DNA of 22,197 bases, from positions 1-22,197 of IMG/VR virus record IMGVR_UViG_3300043409_001419. The stretch is one strand, 5' to 3'. Positions 3,450 to 22,197 of this stretch are shown here, one piece after another. Source of the DNA: a virus. Every line of letters begins with the position of its first letter. Position 1 is the stretch's first letter. Below the pieces are notes generated by a model. That model made no database searches. It was not told where the DNA came from and was given only the letters and a program-made list of their open reading frames with translations. A program made the translations under genes and the position numbers.

Positions 3450-4193
3450 CTATCCGACCATATCAAAGACAGGTAATGACTGTGAACTTAACATAGTATC
3501 TTCTAATCTTTGAATCTCTTCGTTTGCGTCCTGCAAGATCGCTCGTCCATTAAAAGTTATTCCACCAGGAAGCTGCATACCTTCAAATTTGGATAAATTA
3601 GTCCCCCATTGACGTTTGATTAGAGCTGTAGCATATCTAAGCAAAAATGCATCAGCATAAACGTCTGTGTATGTCTCTGGATCTATTGTTCCATAACAAT
3701 CTATAATAATATATAGACCAGCACTTACATCCGATGTCCAATCTAGATCTAGAAATAATTTATCCATTTTACGACTATATCTTATAGCCTTTTTACCATT
3801 GAAAATTTCTTCCAATGATTCGACGTGGCGCATAGCCATAACATACGCAGCAGATGCAGAATTAGAAAAGTCGAATAGATCGTTTAAATGCATCTGATAT
3901 CTAATGTTAAACAATCCGTTAATATTAGAATTTCCAGCAGTAGAGAATATAGACGTTACAGATTGAACTGTTTCTGGAAGAGTAATGTATCTATTTGTAA
4001 TGTCGGTCGCGGTCATCAAATACGATAAGTATAGATGCTCTGTTCCATCATAATGATAGTCGCGATAATAAGCCAAAGCATCGTCGATTCTATCTTGGAT
4101 TTGATCCTCATCCACGTTTATGTCGATAACGGGATATCCTAGTCTACGTAGGCAATAATCCTTAAATTCTTTTCTCGATACAGGAAGTGCCAT
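3450..4193 (-). CDS. 13: Neck protein gp13
   Basis: Head-completion protein of the neck ring, partner of gp14. It has 247 residues (T4 gp13: 309). The N-terminus SRKEFKDYCLRRLGYPVI, followed by VDEDQIQDRIDDALAYYRDY, is the hallmark of the T4-like gp13 family. The C-terminal part carries an IKRQWGTNLSKFEGMQLPGG segment. A good Shine-Dalgarno (GGAGC) precedes the ATG at 4193, and a TATAAATA late promoter lies about 27 bases upstream. The neck/packaging block gp13 to gp17 therefore has its own late promoter, separating it from the accessory island. Confidence 0.92.
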   Translation of the reverse strand: MALPVSRKEFKDYCLRRLGYPVIDINVDEDQIQDRIDDALAYYRDYHYDGTEHLYLSYLMTATDITNRYITLPETVQSVTSIFSTAGNSNINGLFNIRYQMHLNDLFDFSNSASAAYVMAMRHVESLEEIFNGKKAIRYSRKMDKLFLDLDWTSDVSAGLYIIIDCYGTIDPETYTDVYADAFLLRYATALIKRQWGTNLSKFEGMQLPGGITFNGRAILQDANEEIQRLEDTMLSSQSLPVFDMVG

Positions 4194-4228: not shown

Positions 4229-4930
4229 TCAAAACATTCTCCAATTTTTGGTTGGCTGTGTGCCTGTAGCATTGGAAGAAGATTCTCTATAAATTAGATT
4301 AAAGTCGCCCGCAAGACATATTCTCTGTTGAAATAATTCATTTTCATTGAATGCTTCGACAATAGTTTCTTTTCTATAACTATCAACGATATCGTGAGTC
4401 AATTCTCCAGGAAAAACAAATAAATCTCCCTCAAAAGCGGGTTGCTCCCAAGTTTTGCAATTAAACTCATTCCACTTATTCTTACAGTTAAATTCAGACA
4501 TACAATAATATAGATCATTAATGTTATTGTGTTTTCTATGGAATCTTAAATTCTTTTTTAAATCTTCGGGAATATTAATGTAGTAGGTAAAAACAACATG
4601 TGCGTCTGCGTGACAATGAACATTGGTCGGAGTTCCTGTAACACTTAGCCACGATTTAACAAGAGAAAGATCATATAATTGATCATCAATATTCATTGTT
4701 CGTATATACTCTCTCACACATTCAGAAGCAAAACGAAATATCGGAGAGTATGAATCTATAGTATGTAATCCGATATGTTTGGTTCTCTCACCGACACCAA
4801 CAACACTTTTAGTTGTTCCATTATTTCTAATGTAATCAAAAATAGTTTCTTTAAAGTGCTGCTTGAATGTTTCGTGATCTGGAAATTTCCATTCTCCATA
4901 TAACGTCGGAAATATCGAATGCTTAATCAT
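4229..4930 (-). CDS. 2OG-Fe(II) oxygenase-like protein (PF13759 type)
   Basis: A 233-residue protein resembling the 2-oxoglutarate/Fe(II) oxygenases common in marine T4-like phages. The pattern WLSVTGTPTNVHCHADAH (94-111) is followed by a Tyr-Tyr-Ile strand. It offers His/Asp metal ligands among H105, H107, D109 and H111. GDLFVFPGELTH (168-179) supplies the distal His, and R203 in RICLAGDFNL would bind 2-oxoglutarate. Such enzymes hydroxylate proteins, nucleobases or small molecules; the substrate here is unknown. It is unlike the second oxygenase in this window in sequence and subfamily. It lies 11 bases after the 128-residue gene, with a weak ribosome-binding site, and is followed by the gp13 promoter. 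Confidence 0.72.
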   Translation of the reverse strand: MIKHSIFPTLYGEWKFPDHETFKQHFKETIFDYIRNNGTTKSVVGVGERTKHIGLHTIDSYSPIFRFASECVREYIRTMNIDDQLYDLSLVKSWLSVTGTPTNVHCHADAHVVFTYYINIPEDLKKNLRFHRKHNNINDLYYCMSEFNCKNKWNEFNCKTWEQPAFEGDLFVFPGELTHDIVDSYRKETIVEAFNENELFQQRICLAGDFNLIYRESSSNATGTQPTKNWRMF

Positions 4931-4941
4931 ATATGCATATT

Positions 4942-5328
4942 TTATATTTCTACTTCAGTTTGAGAAAAAATAATTCCACTATTTGCATGCAAGATGGGAC
5001 CATAATTTTTAAGCTGATTTAATTCCCCATTTCGAGGAAATTCTGTTGAGATTGGTCTACGAGTAGTAACTCTCAGTATTTCTGTATCTTTACTGTAAGC
5101 GTCTTTTTGTTCATAATCTTTAAATATGCATTCAATAATTTGTTTAGACGCAAGATTACGAAATAATATTATTTCGTCTAATGCATTTTTATATGTTATA
5201 GTTTTAGATAATATTAATCCAGTATCTTCATATTTTTCTTTTATATAGTCCGATCCACCTTCTTTTATTCCTGGAAAAACTGAATCTGAAGTGGTTTTCT
5301 CATGAGTTATGGTTCTCTTGATAGGCAT
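4942..5328 (-). CDS. Hypothetical protein, 128 residues
   Basis: I do not recognise this protein. It is soluble-looking, with no signal peptide or membrane segment. It is mixed alpha/beta, with many Lys, Glu, Ile and Thr residues. It is the first gene leftward from the divergent late promoter pair and has a strong Shine-Dalgarno (GGAGG, 8 bases before the ATG), so it is probably well expressed late. The 2OG oxygenase gene follows at 11 bases, which suggests the two are expressed together and could be partners or enzyme and substrate. A virion or tail accessory role is possible from context only. Confidence 0.7.
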   Translation of the reverse strand: MPIKRTITHEKTTSDSVFPGIKEGGSDYIKEKYEDTGLILSKTITYKNALDEIILFRNLASKQIIECIFKDYEQKDAYSKDTEILRVTTRRPISTEFPRNGELNQLKNYGPILHANSGIIFSQTEVEI

Positions 5329-5378: not shown

Positions 5379-6194
5379 ATGATCATCAGCGAAAATAATT
5401 GGATCAATGATAATTTTACATCGATAGGGCTTATCTCTGATTACGATGTAGAATTTAATCTGTATCCATTCAAGCCATTAGATTTCCATACAGCTGCAGA
5501 ACAAGCAGCAATAAAAATCTCCAAAAAATATCAAAACCTTTATGTAGGATTGAGTGGTGGAATTGATTCAGAATATGTGTTAGTGTGTTTTCATAAATTA
5601 AAAATTCCAATCATTCCTTTAATTATATTATGTGAAGGCAATGAACAAGAATCAAAATATGCATTTAAGATTTGTGAAAAATTAAATATCGTTCCTAAAG
5701 TTATAACTTGCTCGAATGATGTAATTCTCGATATATGCGTCAATTATATATCTAAAAAAATAAATGGTATAGGGTTTCAGTCAGCAACGCGAGCATATTC
5801 TGCAAATCATGTTAAAAATAACAACGGCACATTAATATGCGGTGAACATATCATAGGTGATGGTAACATATTAATAAGAGATAGTGAATACGCAATGAAT
5901 GAATGGGACGGATACGATTCTGCACACTTCGGAGATCAAATTGGATTTTTTACATATACTCCGCAATTGACTTATTCGATGATTAGTGGAAATACTTTGA
6001 ATGGAGAAAATATGAGCTGGAAAGAATATAAATCAAAATTATTTGGATTAGAATTAAGAGATAAAATTCATTATAGTTATCCAGAAAGAATCAAAAAGAT
6101 AATTTCATCTATTCGTAGATTAAGAAGTTTTGAAACTGGAATACGATGGAAAAGAGATGAGATTCTTGATATATTTAAGCCCTATCTGATATGA
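5379..6194 (+). CDS. PP-loop ATPase (adenine nucleotide alpha-hydrolase-like) 1
   Basis: A 271-residue protein with a clear PP-loop: LYVGLSGGIDSEYVLVCF (54-71), pyrophosphate-binding core SGGIDS (59-64). A Rossmann-like strand PIIPLIILCE follows (78-86). The superfamily includes asparagine synthetase, NAD synthetase, TilS, TtcA, QueC and ThiI. Members activate a substrate by adenylation and release pyrophosphate, so that N or S can be added. No N-terminal glutaminase domain, no CxxC thiolation motif and no THUMP-like domain is visible, so the family member and substrate cannot be named. It is one of only two plus-strand genes here, with visibly higher A+T than the virion genes. It overlaps the next gene by ATGA, implying coupled synthesis. 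Confidence 0.87.
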   Translation: MIISENNWINDNFTSIGLISDYDVEFNLYPFKPLDFHTAAEQAAIKISKKYQNLYVGLSGGIDSEYVLVCFHKLKIPIIPLIILCEGNEQESKYAFKICEKLNIVPKVITCSNDVILDICVNYISKKINGIGFQSATRAYSANHVKNNNGTLICGEHIIGDGNILIRDSEYAMNEWDGYDSAHFGDQIGFFTYTPQLTYSMISGNTLNGENMSWKEYKSKLFGLELRDKIHYSYPERIKKIISSIRRLRSFETGIRWKRDEILDIFKPYLI

Positions 6195-7312
6195 ACTCTA
6201 ATATTCAAATATATTCACCAGATAAATTTGGTTTTTATCAAGTTGGTGAGTATCGAACATACAGCAGAATGGAAGCAATAGAATACGCTGCAAAAAATAA
6301 AAAAAATATTCATTGGAATTATAATGACGAAGTATTTTCTAAGATAGATTTTTCTAAAGAGATAGATATATCTTTAAACGAATTATACAAATTAAGATGT
6401 AGACAAATTAGAAACTCATATGATTACGTTGTTCTTTTCTATAGTGGTGGATCTGATAGTCATAATATGTTAATGCAATGGATTAATTCTGACTGTAAAT
6501 TAGATGAAGTTGCAACACTCGTATCTCTTGAAGGATCTAAAGTTAAAAACGATTATGCGAATATAGAACAATATTCAGTTGCGATTCCAAATATCATAGC
6601 TCTTTCGGAAAAATATAAATTCGATTACACTGTGATAGATTTTTCTAAATTTATCATGGATTATATAGTTACGAATGCTCGTTATGAAAACATACTATAC
6701 GACATGAATTTTAATCTATCACCAAATAATATCGCAAAATCCTTATTGAGATATAATGTAGATAAGTGGAAAAACTTAATTCTTTCTGGAAAAAAAGTTT
6801 GTTTTCTTTGGGGTATGGAAAAATTAATTATCGTTAATAGAAAAGGAGATAATTATTTAAAATTTTTAGATCGTTATGATAATGTAGTTTCACCGATTGT
6901 TCAAAGAAATTATAATGCTGGTTGGTATGATGAGTTTTTTTCTATTACTCCAGATTTACCAGAATTAATGATAAAACAATGTAATATAATTAAAAACTTT
7001 TTCAAGATAAGAAATGTGAATCTACATTCAATTCTACCATATTATCAACAAACACCTTCTTCTCGAGGATATAATAAGATATTGAATTTATATCTATCCG
7101 AGGATGGTTATCGAAAACTCATTTATCCATATTGGGATTTAAATACCTTTTCTACAGGAAAATCTGCATCTACATCAAAATCTAGAATTGATGATTGGAT
7201 ATGGGATGGAAATATGATACAAAAAGATATTTTTTTAGACTCACATAAAATTTTTGAAACTAAAACATTAAATACTAGTATACCAATATCTACAAACGAA
7301 TATATTATTTGA
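6191..7312 (+). CDS. PP-loop ATPase-like protein 2
   Basis: A 373-residue protein with a second, distinct PP-loop: YDYVVLFYSGGSDSHNMLMQ (77-96), core SGGSDS (85-90). About 80 residues precede the loop. A longer C-terminal region, rich in Asn, Tyr, Lys and Trp, may hold the substrate- or partner-binding part; it has no recognised motif. It resembles asparagine synthetase/PAPS-reductase-like ATPases annotated in other marine phages, but the reaction is unknown. The start overlaps the stop of the first PP-loop gene, suggesting a two-subunit enzyme or two successive steps. Its 3' end overlaps the convergent gene at 7305 by 8 bases, so there is no room for a normal terminator. Strongly A+T-rich. 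Confidence 0.85.
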   Translation: MNSNIQIYSPDKFGFYQVGEYRTYSRMEAIEYAAKNKKNIHWNYNDEVFSKIDFSKEIDISLNELYKLRCRQIRNSYDYVVLFYSGGSDSHNMLMQWINSDCKLDEVATLVSLEGSKVKNDYANIEQYSVAIPNIIALSEKYKFDYTVIDFSKFIMDYIVTNARYENILYDMNFNLSPNNIAKSLLRYNVDKWKNLILSGKKVCFLWGMEKLIIVNRKGDNYLKFLDRYDNVVSPIVQRNYNAGWYDEFFSITPDLPELMIKQCNIIKNFFKIRNVNLHSILPYYQQTPSSRGYNKILNLYLSEDGYRKLIYPYWDLNTFSTGKSASTSKSRIDDWIWDGNMIQKDIFLDSHKIFETKTLNTSIPISTNEYII

Positions 7313-7787
7313 TAAGATTTAAATCTTCGAAGGGGTTTATCAATGATTGTACATTATTCAATATTTCTAAGAGTGTTTTATATTCGCTGATTTTTTTTGC
7401 AAGTTTTTCTTTTTTTTCTATTACAAGTTTTCTTTTTTCTAAAAATACGCTCAATACGCTATCATCTTTTAATTCTTGAAATATATTTCCTATTTTATCT
7501 TTAGACATAGCATTTATGAGTTCTATTAATCTAGATTGTATTAGTGAAATATTCGATTCACTTGTGGTATAAATCGTATCTGCACTGTAGTCTGAATGAT
7601 TTAAATTGTATGTCATTTGAAAATCAAATGTATTTGTTAGTGATTGCAAACATATTAATTGTGATTGTAAATTATTATTAACAACAACAAAATATAATTT
7701 ATCTAATTTATAATCCTTTTCGACATTTATATTTTCTAGTTCTTCTATGATATTATTGTTATCATCCAAATACAATAAATTTATCAT
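7305..7787 (-). CDS. Hypothetical coiled-coil protein, 160 residues
   Basis: I do not recognise this protein. I chose the ATG at 7787, which overlaps the upstream oxygenase stop as ATGA and has a GGAGAG Shine-Dalgarno 8 bases upstream. An upstream TTG at 7811 would add 8 residues but lacks such a site. The N-terminal half is Asn- and Leu-rich (MINLLYLDDNNNIIEELENI). The C-terminal half, KRKLVIEKKEKLAKKISEYK (about 117-136) with following Leu-spaced residues, is a likely coiled coil. It is probably co-translated with the oxygenase and could be its partner, or an accessory virion protein. The 3' end overlaps the plus-strand PP-loop gene. Confidence 0.75.
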   Translation of the reverse strand: MINLLYLDDNNNIIEELENINVEKDYKLDKLYFVVVNNNLQSQLICLQSLTNTFDFQMTYNLNHSDYSADTIYTTSESNISLIQSRLIELINAMSKDKIGNIFQELKDDSVLSVFLEKRKLVIEKKEKLAKKISEYKTLLEILNNVQSLINPFEDLNLIK

Positions 7788-8338
7788 CTGAATCGCTCTC
7801 CTGTAAACCAATTAACCAATGAATATCTTGTACCCTTTGTCACTGGTGATACTCTATGTTTTATAAAAGATGGAAAAACTACGATAGATCCTTGTAATCT
7901 AAAATCTGGAACTATTCCATTTTCGAATTCAAAAATCCCACCTTCATAATCATCTGGATTAGTGATGCTTATACTCATACTCAATTTTCTCATATCATTT
8001 TGAAATCCAGAAGAATCTTCATGGAAATCGTAAAACTCATCGTTGTCGTATATAGTGAACTGTGGTGATTGCTGTCCATTTATAGAAAAATTCCAACCAC
8101 TATTTCGATTTGCGATATCCATGTATTTCCAACATATGGCAGAAACCCAATTATTGGCATCGAAAAAACTTATTTTAGATTTTCTTGTTTTTTCATCCAC
8201 AGAACCTTCAGAATTATCACTTCCGCCACCAATCTTTCCCGAAGTCGATTTTAATTTTTTTCCTTCAGTAATGATTGCTTCACAAACAGAAACTGGAAGC
8301 TCGCCTTGCCATGACCACCACATCGGATCTATAATCAT
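7784..8338 (-). CDS. 2OG-Fe(II) oxygenase, prolyl 4-hydroxylase/PKHD type
   Basis: A non-heme Fe(II)/2-oxoglutarate hydroxylase of about 184 residues. The metal triad is clear: H106-x-D108 in FYDFHEDSSG and the distal H161 in FPSFIKHRVSPVTKGTRYS, with R171 to bind 2-oxoglutarate. The VVFPSF-KHRVSPVTKGTRY-W pattern is that of PKHD/P4Hc enzymes (PiuC/YbiX-like). YEGGIFEFENG is the usual strand before it. The start at 8338 makes an ATGA overlap with the upstream gene and has GGGTGA 7 bases before it. An alternative ATG at 8353 adds five residues. It lies two genes downstream of a collagen-like adhesin with Pro-Gly sites, an obvious candidate substrate (inference). It is clearly a different subfamily from the oxygenase at 4229-4930. 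Confidence 0.87.
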   Translation of the reverse strand: MIIDPMWWSWQGELPVSVCEAIITEGKKLKSTSGKIGGGSDNSEGSVDEKTRKSKISFFDANNWVSAICWKYMDIANRNSGWNFSINGQQSPQFTIYDNDEFYDFHEDSSGFQNDMRKLSMSISITNPDDYEGGIFEFENGIVPDFRLQGSIVVFPSFIKHRVSPVTKGTRYSLVNWFTGERFR

Positions 8339-9036
8339 ATTTTTTTCACCCATACATTATCGCGATAATGACTAGGAACACTCGATTGTATATCTCTATG
8401 TATTTGACGTTTTTTAATATCTTCTGGTGAAAATGTTTGTATCTTAGCCACTTTGTTATATTCTCGTTTAAATGGAATCACTTGCATCAACGGATATCCA
8501 GAATCCAATTTTAAATATCCATCTGTCTTAACAAATCCTGGAAAATTTACATACTCATAATAATTGTCAGTTTCGACTATTCCTGCCATAAGTTCTAACT
8601 TATTATCAATTCTATTTATCGGAGATATAAACAGACTAGACCATCCGGGTGGAGTTTTTACCATCCAGTAGTTTAATATTTTCAGTGGAACTTTTGGTGC
8701 TTTAGGATGCGTTGCGACTTGATGCAATTTATGATTTTCTATTATAGGATATATGAAATCTGATTCCCAAGATACTCCAGCTCCATCATCTATAACATTT
8801 AAATGCACATCGGCAACCAGAGGAATTATCCATCCAGCAGACATAGCATCTAAAAATGGTGGACACCGTTTAAGTGTTGGCGTTGGTGTAATCTTATTTT
8901 CTTCTTTATGATAAGATTCCAATCGCTTATACCAATCAGGAATAAACTGCTTCGCTGGATATGGTTTTGGTATTACTCCATCTAATCTAGGGTCACAAAG
9001 AAATTCGATTTCGTCATTCGATTTTTTCCAAAACAT
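8335..9036 (-). CDS. Conserved marine-phage protein, DUF6065-like
   Basis: A 233-residue soluble protein. The order of features (a short N-terminus, PYPAKQFIPDWYKRL, then TLKRCPPFLDAMSAGWIIPL, later VKTPPGWSSLFISPINR and GYPLMQVIPFKRE) resembles a family I recall as DUF6065. That family is frequent in cyanophage and other marine T4-like genomes and often sits beside 2OG oxygenases. Its function is unknown. The several Pro-Trp turns suggest a beta-rich fold. It has a good Shine-Dalgarno (GAGGAA). Its last codons overlap the start of the prolyl-hydroxylase-type gene, so the two are probably translated together. The family name is from memory and tentative. Confidence 0.75.
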   Translation of the reverse strand: MFWKKSNDEIEFLCDPRLDGVIPKPYPAKQFIPDWYKRLESYHKEENKITPTPTLKRCPPFLDAMSAGWIIPLVADVHLNVIDDGAGVSWESDFIYPIIENHKLHQVATHPKAPKVPLKILNYWMVKTPPGWSSLFISPINRIDNKLELMAGIVETDNYYEYVNFPGFVKTDGYLKLDSGYPLMQVIPFKREYNKVAKIQTFSPEDIKKRQIHRDIQSSVPSHYRDNVWVKKI

Positions 9037-9054
9037 AATATAAATTCCTCATAA

Positions 9055-10092
9055 TTATTGAGCAGCAAATGAAACTGTCACTGATTTCCCTGGCGCAACT
9101 GTAACTGTATATTGAGCTAAAGATCTAACTAGCGCAGTAGTTGTTCCTGAACCTCCAATTCCGCCGGCTGTACCTCCTGTTCCCGCATTACCTGCAGCAC
9201 CTGGATTTCCTGCTGTACCTGGATTTCCAGCTCCACCTGCATTACCTGCTGCAGCTGCATTACCTCCTGCACCTGCACCTCCTGCACCTCCAGGATTACC
9301 TGCGGGTCCAGCAGGAGTATTTTTGGTAGCTGGAGTTCCTGGTCCACCTGCTCCACCTGCTCCGCCGGATCCACCACCACCAACGTTCGGTGAGCCAGTC
9401 CCACCACCAGCACCACCGCCACCTCCACCAACACCACCATTGCCACCTGCTCCGCCGTTTCCACCCAACCCACCATTGCCACCTGCCCCACCATTTCCTG
9501 CACTGCCTGCATTTCCTGCATTTCCTGCAGCACCTGCATTTCCAGCGGCATAGCTAATTGATGGAGTTGCACCTGTCCACGCTGCAGGACCATTAAATGT
9601 AGATGCCACTCCGGCACTACCACCTACACCCGCATTTCCTGCTGGGGTTCCTGTTCCAGCGGCACCTGTATTACCAACAGCGCCTGCACTACCACCACCA
9701 CCTGCTGAACCTGCATTTCCAGTCGAACCTGCACCGCCAGGAGCATCGGATCCACCGCCACCGCCGCCTGGCGCGCTACCGGCATTACCTGGAGTTCCCC
9801 CACTGCCTGGGCCGCCAGCTCCTGAAGTACCACCACCACCACCACCGCCACCACCACTACCGCCTGTATTTCCTGGTCCGCCTGCATTTCCTGATGCGCC
9901 TGCATTTCCGGCCGCGCCTGCATTTCCGGCCGCGCCTCCATTTCCCGCAGTGCCTGCATTTCCATCAGAACCAGCTCCAACAACAGATATGACTCGAACT
10001 CCATAAGGGACTGTATAAGTTCCCGAGGAATTAAATGTTTGCGTTCCTCCAGGCCATACTGGATCCGTTAATAATGCAGTTGCTGTGAACAT
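9055..10092 (-). CDS. Gly-rich collagen-like tail adhesin
   Basis: A 345-residue protein of three parts. The N-terminus (1-36) has the phage Gly-rich-domain strand FNSSGTYTVPYGVRVISVVG. Residues about 37-315 are mostly Gly, Asn and Ala, first as regular Gly-X-Y triplets (GNAGTAGNGGAAGNAG), with poly-Gly runs, many Gly-Asn-Ala units and one non-repetitive insert around STFNGPAAWTGATPSISY. The C-terminus is a closing beta segment, YTVTVAPGKSVTVSF. Such proteins pack as polyglycine-II helices and form tip adhesins or tail-fibre ends (compare gp38 of S16-like phages). About ten X-Pro-Gly sites are present. The gene starts 1 base after the 112-residue gene. The low-complexity DNA opens long shadow frames on both strands. 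Confidence 0.85.
   Translation of the reverse strand: MFTATALLTDPVWPGGTQTFNSSGTYTVPYGVRVISVVGAGSDGNAGTAGNGGAAGNAGAAGNAGASGNAGGPGNTGGSGGGGGGGGGTSGAGGPGSGGTPGNAGSAPGGGGGGSDAPGGAGSTGNAGSAGGGGSAGAVGNTGAAGTGTPAGNAGVGGSAGVASTFNGPAAWTGATPSISYAAGNAGAAGNAGNAGSAGNGGAGGNGGLGGNGGAGGNGGVGGGGGGAGGGTGSPNVGGGGSGGAGGAGGPGTPATKNTPAGPAGNPGGAGGAGAGGNAAAAGNAGGAGNPGTAGNPGAAGNAGTGGTAGGIGGSGTTTALVRSLAQYTVTVAPGKSVTVSFAAQ
9150..9985 (-). repeat. Low-complexity Gly-X-Y coding repeat
   Basis: Degenerate short-period repeat encoding the Gly/Asn/Ala region of the adhesin (Gly-Asn-Ala-Gly triplet units and poly-Gly). The codons vary, so the protein pattern is kept more strictly than the DNA. Confidence 0.8.
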
Positions 10093-20815: not shown

Positions 20816-22197
20816 TTATGTTACCCAATACATTCGTGCATTTGCAGTCGTTGGTGTGTAATCTGACGTTAGAGTCAAGAAGTTATTAGAGTAGATCGTT
20901 GAGACTGTGTATAGATTTGTATTTGAGGTGAATGTGGCGGCCGCTGGTATGATTCTGACAGTCGTTGTAGATACAATCGATCCATTTCCAAAGTTTCCAT
21001 TTGCTTGGCGATCCAGATTCCGTCCGATATCTGGTGATGTTACAAGAACGAGTCTTGGAATTCCATCCAAATCGGTCATCGTTTGAATTTGAACAGCTTT
21101 AAATACATTCACCGTATCCTTGCTAAATGTAGATATCTGCGTATTACCATATACAACTCTCACAAATCCTGTAGGTTGTCCAGTGGTTGTTGAGAGGTTA
21201 AATACCACAGCAGTTTGCAGATCAACTGGCGTTCCGGAAGTTTCTAATATTGCAGCAGGACCAGTATACACAGCAGTTTCCCGATCAACTGGCGTTCCGG
21301 AAGTTTCTAATATTGCAGCAGGACCAGTATACACAGCAGTTTCTAGATCAGCTGGTGTAGAAGTTTCAGAAACTGATGCTAATGAATTCCACCGAGCTGT
21401 TTCTAGATCAGCTGGTGTAGAAGTTTCTGTAACTGATGCTAATGAATTCCACTGAGCTGTTTCTAGATCAGCTGGCGTTCCACCGTATTCATATACGTTA
21501 ACCTCTTTTGTTATAGTAGCAGTTTCCCGATCAGCAGGAGTTACACCAGATTCTAGAACAGCAACAGATGTAATTGCGCCAGCAGGTTCTAGATCAGCTG
21601 GTGTAGAAGTTTCAGAAACTGATGCTAATGAATTCCACCGAGCTGTTTCTAGATCAGCTGGTGTAGAAGTTTCTGTAACTGCTGGAGTTCCAGAATACAC
21701 AGCAGTTTCCCGATCAGCAGGAGTTACACCAGATTCTACAACAGCGGCAGGTCCAGTATACACAGCAGTTTCCCGATCAGCAGGAGTTACACCAGATTCT
21801 ACAACAGCGGCAGGTCCAGTATACACAGCAGTTTCTAGATCAGCTGGTGTAGAAGTTTCAGAAACTGATGCTAATGAATTCCACCGAGCTGTTTCTAGAT
21901 CAGCTGGTGTAGAAGTTTCTGTAACTGCTGGAGTTCCAGAATACACAGCAGTTTCCCGATCAGCAGGAGTTACACCAGATTCTACAACAGCGGCAGGTCC
22001 AGTATACACAGCAGTTTCCCGATCAGCAGGAGTTACACCAGATTCTACAACAGCGGCAGGTCCAGTATACACAGCAGTTTCTAGATCAGCTGGTGTAGAA
22101 GTTTCATACAGATTAACTTCTTTTGTTACACGTTGGCTGGAGATATCGGTAACAGTTCCAGCAGTTTCAAAAACAGACGCAGATGTTATGACTCCAC
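20816..22197 (-). CDS. Repeat-built virion protein (C-terminal part, runs off right edge)
   Basis: The frame stays open to the right edge, so this is the C-terminal 460 or so residues of a longer protein. A GTG at 22072 lies inside a repeat and is not the likely start. It consists of 20-21-residue repeats built on the core TPADLETA or TPADRETA, each followed by a variable strand (VYTGPAAVVESG, RWNSLASVSETS, TITKEVNVYEYGG). The last 130 residues or so are non-repetitive (TTTGQPTGFVRVVYGNTQIS onward) and end in MYWVT. The repeats suggest a beta-stranded stalk capped by a globular end, as in a tail fibre or whisker. The position before gp8 suggests a baseplate- or tail-linked structure. I know no named family for it. 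Confidence 0.8.
   Translation of the reverse strand, partial: GVITSASVFETAGTVTDISSQRVTKEVNLYETSTPADLETAVYTGPAAVVESGVTPADRETAVYTGPAAVVESGVTPADRETAVYSGTPAVTETSTPADLETARWNSLASVSETSTPADLETAVYTGPAAVVESGVTPADRETAVYTGPAAVVESGVTPADRETAVYSGTPAVTETSTPADLETARWNSLASVSETSTPADLEPAGAITSVAVLESGVTPADRETATITKEVNVYEYGGTPADLETAQWNSLASVTETSTPADLETARWNSLASVSETSTPADLETAVYTGPAAILETSGTPVDRETAVYTGPAAILETSGTPVDLQTAVVFNLSTTTGQPTGFVRVVYGNTQISTFSKDTVNVFKAVQIQTMTDLDGIPRLVLVTSPDIGRNLDRQANGNFGNGSIVSTTTVRIIPAAATFTSNTNLYTVSTIYSNNFLTLTSDYTPTTANARMYWVT
21205..22105 (-). repeat. Nested tandem repeats (60/63 bp, with a 246-bp higher-order unit)
   Basis: Basic units of 60 or 63 bases (20 or 21 residues). Four of them form a 246-base (82-residue) block present as two adjacent copies, 21589-21834 and 21835-22080, which I read as identical base for base. 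A third copy starts at 22081 and diverges after about 26 bases. A separate pair of 63-base copies lies at 21220-21345. Confidence 0.92.

Follow-up and report, generated by a model that had tools for sequence, protein, structure and literature searches.

What do two adjacent PP-loop genes do on the plus strand of a viral DNA whose virion operon runs the other way? The window (the whole stretch of DNA analysed, a 22,197-base IMG/VR virus record) carries on its minus strand a T4-type set comprising TerL, TerS, a tail sheath stabiliser, neck proteins of the Hc2 and Ad2 types, and a baseplate wedge. The plus-strand pair is here called P1 and P2. We read both proteins, with a probability of about one half, as asparagine synthetase B (AsnB)-type ligases devoid of a glutaminase that would adenylate a carboxylate, pass it to an amine, and serve in small-molecule pathways that are rich in oxygenases and travel as phage cargo.

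The gene pair and its locus

The features used below are the following (window coordinates).

3450..4193, minus strand: neck protein (Ad2 type), at the border of a recurrent cargo slot
4229..4930, minus strand: 2OG-Fe(II) oxygenase (PF13759, phrog_81)
4942..5328, minus strand: small protein of 128 aa, from a family with 23 ORFs in the fetched loci that recurs close to P1/P2
5351..5358, plus strand: TATAAATA, late-promoter-like site 20 bases upstream of P1
5361..5368, minus strand: TATAAATA, divergent twin, upstream of the minus-strand gene at 4942-5328
5379..6194, plus strand: P1, glutaminase-less asparagine-synthetase-like PP-loop protein (motif, family, fold)
5553..5570, plus strand: P1 PP-loop SGGIDS (aa 59-64), followed by a family-specific Glu65
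6191..7312, plus strand: P2, glutaminase-less asparagine-synthetase-like PP-loop protein (motif, family, fold)
6224..6370, plus strand: P2 aa 12-60, what may be left of the final part of an Ntn glutaminase domain, a hairpin and helix preceding the synthetase domain (hhalign, fold alignment)
6443..6460, plus strand: P2 PP-loop SGGSDS (aa 85-90)
7305..7790, minus strand: conserved small island protein, no family, start codon uncertain; convergent with P2 and overlapping its end
7784..8353, minus strand: 2OG-Fe(II) oxygenase (PF13640, phrog_61)
8335..9036, minus strand: DUF6065-like protein (phrog_7084), its position kept in the nearest relatives

A first-pass annotation of this DNA had described two adjacent, overlapping PP-loop genes, and the sequence confirms the description: P1 (271 aa) and P2 (373 aa) each have an intact PP-loop, and their reading frames share an ATGA at 6191-6194. 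They are also, as had been claimed, the sole credible plus-strand genes of the window, the further plus-strand ORFs of at least 60 aa being antisense to bigger minus-strand genes. The claim of a late promoter belonging to the pair holds in part. A TATAAATA site does stand upstream of P1, and the window has eight sites of this type (3.25 expected; equalled in 2 of 100 shuffles), which lends modest support to a late-promoter reading of those near P1. The pair was further said to be richer in A+T than its neighbours. This is so relative to the whole window (GC 30.0% in P1, 26.5% in P2, 37.0% overall) but not relative to the flanking genes (29.5% in 4942-5328, 23.0% in 7305-7790), and since these are just as A+T-rich, low GC is a mark of the entire cargo stretch.

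The slot beside the neck gene carries such cargo in four relatives as well (L013, L017, L039, and L076). A scan with the DUF6065 gene for an empty cargo slot returned only the already known relative. The small proteins of the family represented at 4942-5328 (about 100 aa) look like putative ABM-type dimeric alpha+beta barrels. Elsewhere in the window are two proteins that probably belong to the tail or fibre: one is Gly-rich and collagen-like (9055-10092), the other is rich in repeats with ETSTPADLETA units (20816-22195).

Two large, almost purely viral families

The earlier statement that the pair belongs to no known family stands: neither protein matches a family in Pfam, NCBIfam, or PHROGs, where, as in a PDB sequence search, weak PP-loop matches at most were obtained, and tblastn of P1, P2, and their relatives against 50,697 cultured-phage records returned nothing but one chance MnmA fragment (E 0.8). 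Iterated alignments yielded 30 viral loci for P2 and, for P1, 116 relatives, with 79 loci retained on contigs of up to 524 kb. These 109 loci were collapsed to 64 non-redundant locus groups holding 121 P1 and 117 P2 genes. Both families are thus large and almost purely viral, and their members are carried by many uncultured water phages; that no cultured phage in the searched collection has them explains how so widespread a family went unnoticed.

The first-pass annotation had expected homologues of the two genes to occur together and near oxygenase or tail genes. P1 is present in 53 of the 64 groups, P2 in 42, and both in 31, with direct adjacency in either order (P1 before P2 in 8 groups, P2 before P1 in 8), and oxygenase and neck genes are found nearby. 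The accompanying idea of a fixed two-subunit enzyme fares worse, because each family also occurs alone, in multiple copies, and with different partners (oxygenases for P1, TctC for P2). We did not adopt a fixed heterodimer of P1 and P2, since either family is often found without the other nearby. The nearest relatives are two viral contigs with P1 in tandem duplicate (L003 4359-6004; L002 3-1608), on one of which a radical SAM gene adjoins a 2OG oxygenase. On a more distant contig the order is P1, a DUF2061-like membrane protein, P2, and then a second P2 next to a TctC gene.

P1 and P2 are themselves distant kin across the PP-loop region (hhalign probability 95, E 2e-8). Measured against the nearest relatives, dN/dS is 0.14-0.20 for P1 and P2 and about 0.08 for neck genes; by these ratios the two families are under purifying selection, and the dozens of relatives combined with the 0.14-0.20 values make the gene pair more than a product of chance.

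Bacterial members are few. No genome was hit when a narrow P1 alignment was used for scanning, and a broader P1 motif search through 84,980 species of bacteria and archaea gave a single relative, in a Bdellovibrionaceae MAG. The chromosomal island around this P1 also holds genes for two fatty-acid desaturases and two Asp/Asn-hydroxylase-like genes. Four of 369 Bdellovibrionota genomes (L157-L160) carry a single full-length P2 gene, in the vicinity of methyltransferase-like genes and of membrane proteins that contain a spermine-synthase domain. A strict virus-only origin was rejected on these occurrences. As far as gene context can tell, the bacterial settings of P1 and P2 would suit a small-molecule pathway better than virion chemistry.

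Fold and active site

AlphaFold models of P1 and P2 (pLDDT 87.7 and 89.4, respectively) have asparagine synthetase as their best structural match (P1: Z 15.4, rmsd 3.4, 243 residues; P2: Z 12.2, rmsd 5.4, 287 residues), with beta-lactam and carbapenam synthetases next for both; these matches span almost the full length of the chains. Other PP-loop enzymes, LarE and NAD synthetase among them, gave lower scores and shorter alignments (about 150-190 residues for these two). In these models, the fold is that of the synthetase half of AsnB and beta-lactam synthetase. The SGGxDS motif is invariant or nearly so across 120 P1 and 114 P2 sequences, and the mapping of catalytic residues onto AsnB is limited to this PP-loop. 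Curated profiles place the proteins in none of the neighbouring families: Asn_synthase (PF00733) stays below its cut-off (E 0.18 for P1, no match for P2, E 0.0051 for the P1 of L064), as do NAD synthetase profiles (nadE 18 bits vs 63.65; PF02540 14.3 vs 21), and the QueC profile PF06508 leaves P1 and P2 of the window unmatched at E up to 1.

Related PP-loop folds also serve sulfur transfer and nitrile formation, and a shared fold alone does not show the reaction. The first-pass annotation had named amidation or thiolation. Amide formation is favoured because the fold is of the asparagine synthetase type; the cysteine pairs of tRNA thiolases are not conserved. That P1 and P2 should be sulfur-transfer or tRNA-modifying enzymes of the TtuA/NcsA, LarE, TilS, or MnmA type is very improbable in our estimate. 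LarE does head the Foldseek list for P1, and P1 has a single conserved cysteine (Cys99, 89%; P2 has none at the 70% level), but the alignment spans 150-166 residues with LarE and 243 with asparagine synthetase, conserved cysteine pairs as in the Fe-S cluster type of TtuA/NcsA are absent from both families, and tRNA-modification genes were not seen among the neighbours.

The absence of a glutaminase domain, noted before for the window, extends to the relatives: GATase_6 was found on 0 of 26 related contigs and in 14 of 14 control genomes. The chains are 271-373 aa long, compared with 554 aa for E. coli AsnB. Fold alignments begin at AsnB residues 101-119 (101 for P2), late in the Ntn glutaminase domain, and hhalign places P2 aa 12-60 on E. 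coli AsnB 147-225, a weak but collinear match. The catalytic part of the glutaminase is gone, and a putative remnant alone persists. With the catalytic glutaminase missing and no GATase_6 on the contigs, the nitrogen donor would therefore presumably be an amine or free ammonia.

Formation of an amide by the AsnB fold without glutamine-derived ammonia is familiar from beta-lactam and carbapenam synthetases, which retain the glutaminase domain in degenerate form and cyclise a single substrate; in P1 and P2, by contrast, that domain is gone. By analogy with beta-lactam synthetase, we propose that P1 and P2 each bind ATP at the PP-loop and adenylate a carboxylate, and that an amine (or free ammonia) attacks the adenylate to give an amide, AMP, and pyrophosphate.

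P2 and solute-binding proteins

TctC-type solute-binding proteins are the most frequent neighbours (70 genes in 30 groups, a representative passing PF03401), found on 21 of 50 contigs and directly adjacent to P2 in both orders (P2 before TctC in 17 groups, TctC before P2 in 13). By a rough hydrophobicity test, 68 of the 70 TctC proteins have a signal-peptide-like N-terminus, as do 10 of 121 P1 and 9 of 117 P2 proteins. The second prominent association is that of P1 with Rieske, FA_hydroxylase, and FA_desaturase genes (Pfam-confirmed). Both linkages exceed random placement, with counts that are not fully independent because the contigs were selected for carrying P1 or P2 and some are mutually related. 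Of 33 TctC matches on contigs of 90 kb or more, 18 are no farther than 1 kb from P2 (1.28 expected; maximum 8 in 20,000 random placements); of 13 Rieske or FA_hydroxylase matches on 26 contigs, 12 are that close to P1 (0.38 expected; maximum 4 in 20,000 placements), and the thirteenth adjoins a TctC. A reverse search by TctC sequence alone led to 26 viral loci, 21 of them with P1 or P2 within 6 kb, some on contigs previously known. TctC is essentially absent among cultured phages.

A tctA domain has been reported on SUP05 viral contigs, its role being unknown (PMC4164917). Such puzzling viral TctC and TctA genes become testable through their pairing with a specific enzyme. The phage TctC proteins resemble those of the TctC/TctA transporter in passing PF03401, but differ in that TctC usually stands alone beside a P2 gene, with several copies per phage. 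DctP-type (TRAP) solute-binding proteins, apparently without a signal peptide, also lie near P2 (L019 12066-13016; L033 5936-7855).

These neighbours could be taken to mean that the islands scavenge nutrients, importing and metabolising an organic acid or nitrogen compound for replication, with the ligase as one catabolic or assimilatory step. TctC, TctA, DctP, porin, and isocitrate lyase genes would fit; still, we hold this to be quite improbable, since no TctC was seen in the window or in its relative of 42 kb (both fragments), a single nutrient would hardly call for several TctC-P2 pairs in one genome, and the oxygenases, P450, and AdoMet decarboxylase better fit the assembly of a product.

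Protein modification was also considered: the pair might adenylate a small carboxylate and join it to an amine of a protein, be it of the virion, a Gly-rich tail protein, or a host protein. The precedent is Cap9, the QueC-family protein of type IV CBASS, a PP-loop protein that conjugates proteins (PMC13279940), and the late-type promoter and neck and tail neighbourhood point the same way. Yet many relatives are distant from virion genes, the loci have no obvious protein substrate in common, PADLOC anti-phage defence profiles matched none of five family members, and the linkage to transport proteins would be left unexplained; this, too, seems to us unlikely.

P1 and 7-deazaguanine operons

The first-pass annotation saw no other queuosine genes, which is true of the 22 kb window fragment, where 7-deazaguanine pathway genes are lacking, but not of P1 relatives elsewhere. 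In about ten loci (e.g. L061, L063, L064, L087, and L090), P1 stands directly before QueD, near FolE or QueE, and so occupies the QueC position of a 7-deazaguanine operon; these relatives are candidate stand-ins for QueC. QueD is present on 25 of 50 contigs and QueC exceeds its cut-off on seven, and QueC is unmatched on four large contigs with P1 beside QueD (G038, G039, G045, and G046). Rieske and FA-hydroxylase genes are found in those same operons.

Such contexts raise the prospect of DNA-base hypermodification, in which P1 would stand in for QueC and amidate or otherwise convert the 7-carboxy-7-deazaguanine carboxylate, the base would be elaborated further by P2 and the oxygenases, and the product would enter phage DNA. 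As an account of the window pair we find it rather unlikely. QueD is missing from half of the contigs, large ones included (G010, 197 kb; G014, 168 kb), exported TctC proteins are ill-suited to DNA modification, and in a tree of 84 P1 sequences the QueD-adjacent members fall in clades apart from that of the window P1, with several forks weakly supported. The clade of the window P1 has 27 rows, with P2, TctC, FA-hydroxylase, or 2OG contexts. That the window clade is QueC by another name was rejected on the QueC and QueD contig counts and the P1 tree.

Cargo islands and known systems

The ligase reading thus has a setting. Uncultured T4-type and jumbo phages would carry modular cargo islands built around P1 and P2, with P1 partnered by O2-dependent tailoring enzymes (Rieske proteins, membrane di-iron hydroxylases or desaturases, and 2OG oxygenases) and P2 often paired with an exported TctC that could import the carboxylate. 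In the window, where no Rieske, Que, or TctC genes were seen and the only oxygenases are the two 2OG-Fe(II) enzymes, the pair is translationally coupled and probably late, occupies a neck-gene slot beside these two, and most likely serves to make or alter a small molecule inside the infected cell. The earlier suggestion had been a virion protein, tRNA, or DNA; the neighbours of P1 and P2 point rather to small molecules. An AdoMet decarboxylase adjoins P1 or P2 in four phage groups and, with the spermine-synthase-domain neighbours in bacteria, hints at polyamine-like amine donors. A more general scheme is possible, though we advance it tentatively: P2-TctC and P1-iron-oxygenase would be fixed units of a modular phage system in which virus-dominated ligases, active during infection, yield diverse phage-specified small molecules or modified bases.

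With AsnB/ASNS, P1 and P2 share the SGGxDS PP-loop and, over nearly the whole chain, the synthetase-domain fold; they differ in the lack of the Ntn glutaminase domain and of a significant PF00733 match and in their shorter chains. They are not filed as asparagine or beta-lactam synthetases, since they lack the glutaminase domain and do not pass the curated profiles. To QueC and Cap9/QatC they are linked by PP-loop carboxylate activation, predicted for P1 and P2, and by the P1 relatives beside QueD and FolE; in their profile matches and their AsnB-like fold, the window proteins differ from QueC. QueC-family proteins offer the nearest functional precedent for redirected carboxylate activation (PMC13279940). 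Literature on phage tricarboxylate transporters, viral asparagine synthase, and deazaguanine yielded no description of a P1/P2 system, the tctA domain on SUP05 viral contigs being the sole related finding. We regard P1 and P2 as a variant of a known enzyme kind inside an undescribed phage system, one that adds probable amide-forming, oxygen-dependent chemistry to the possible activities of phages in their hosts.

Further genes were observed in the islands. On viral contig L031, a cytochrome P450 gene (5555-6691) lies between two P2 genes; another P2 island contains a carbamoyltransferase (L029 13889-15475); and isocitrate lyase, Gram-negative porin, phosphopantetheinyl transferase, and PEP mutase genes are found among the neighbours of P1 and P2.
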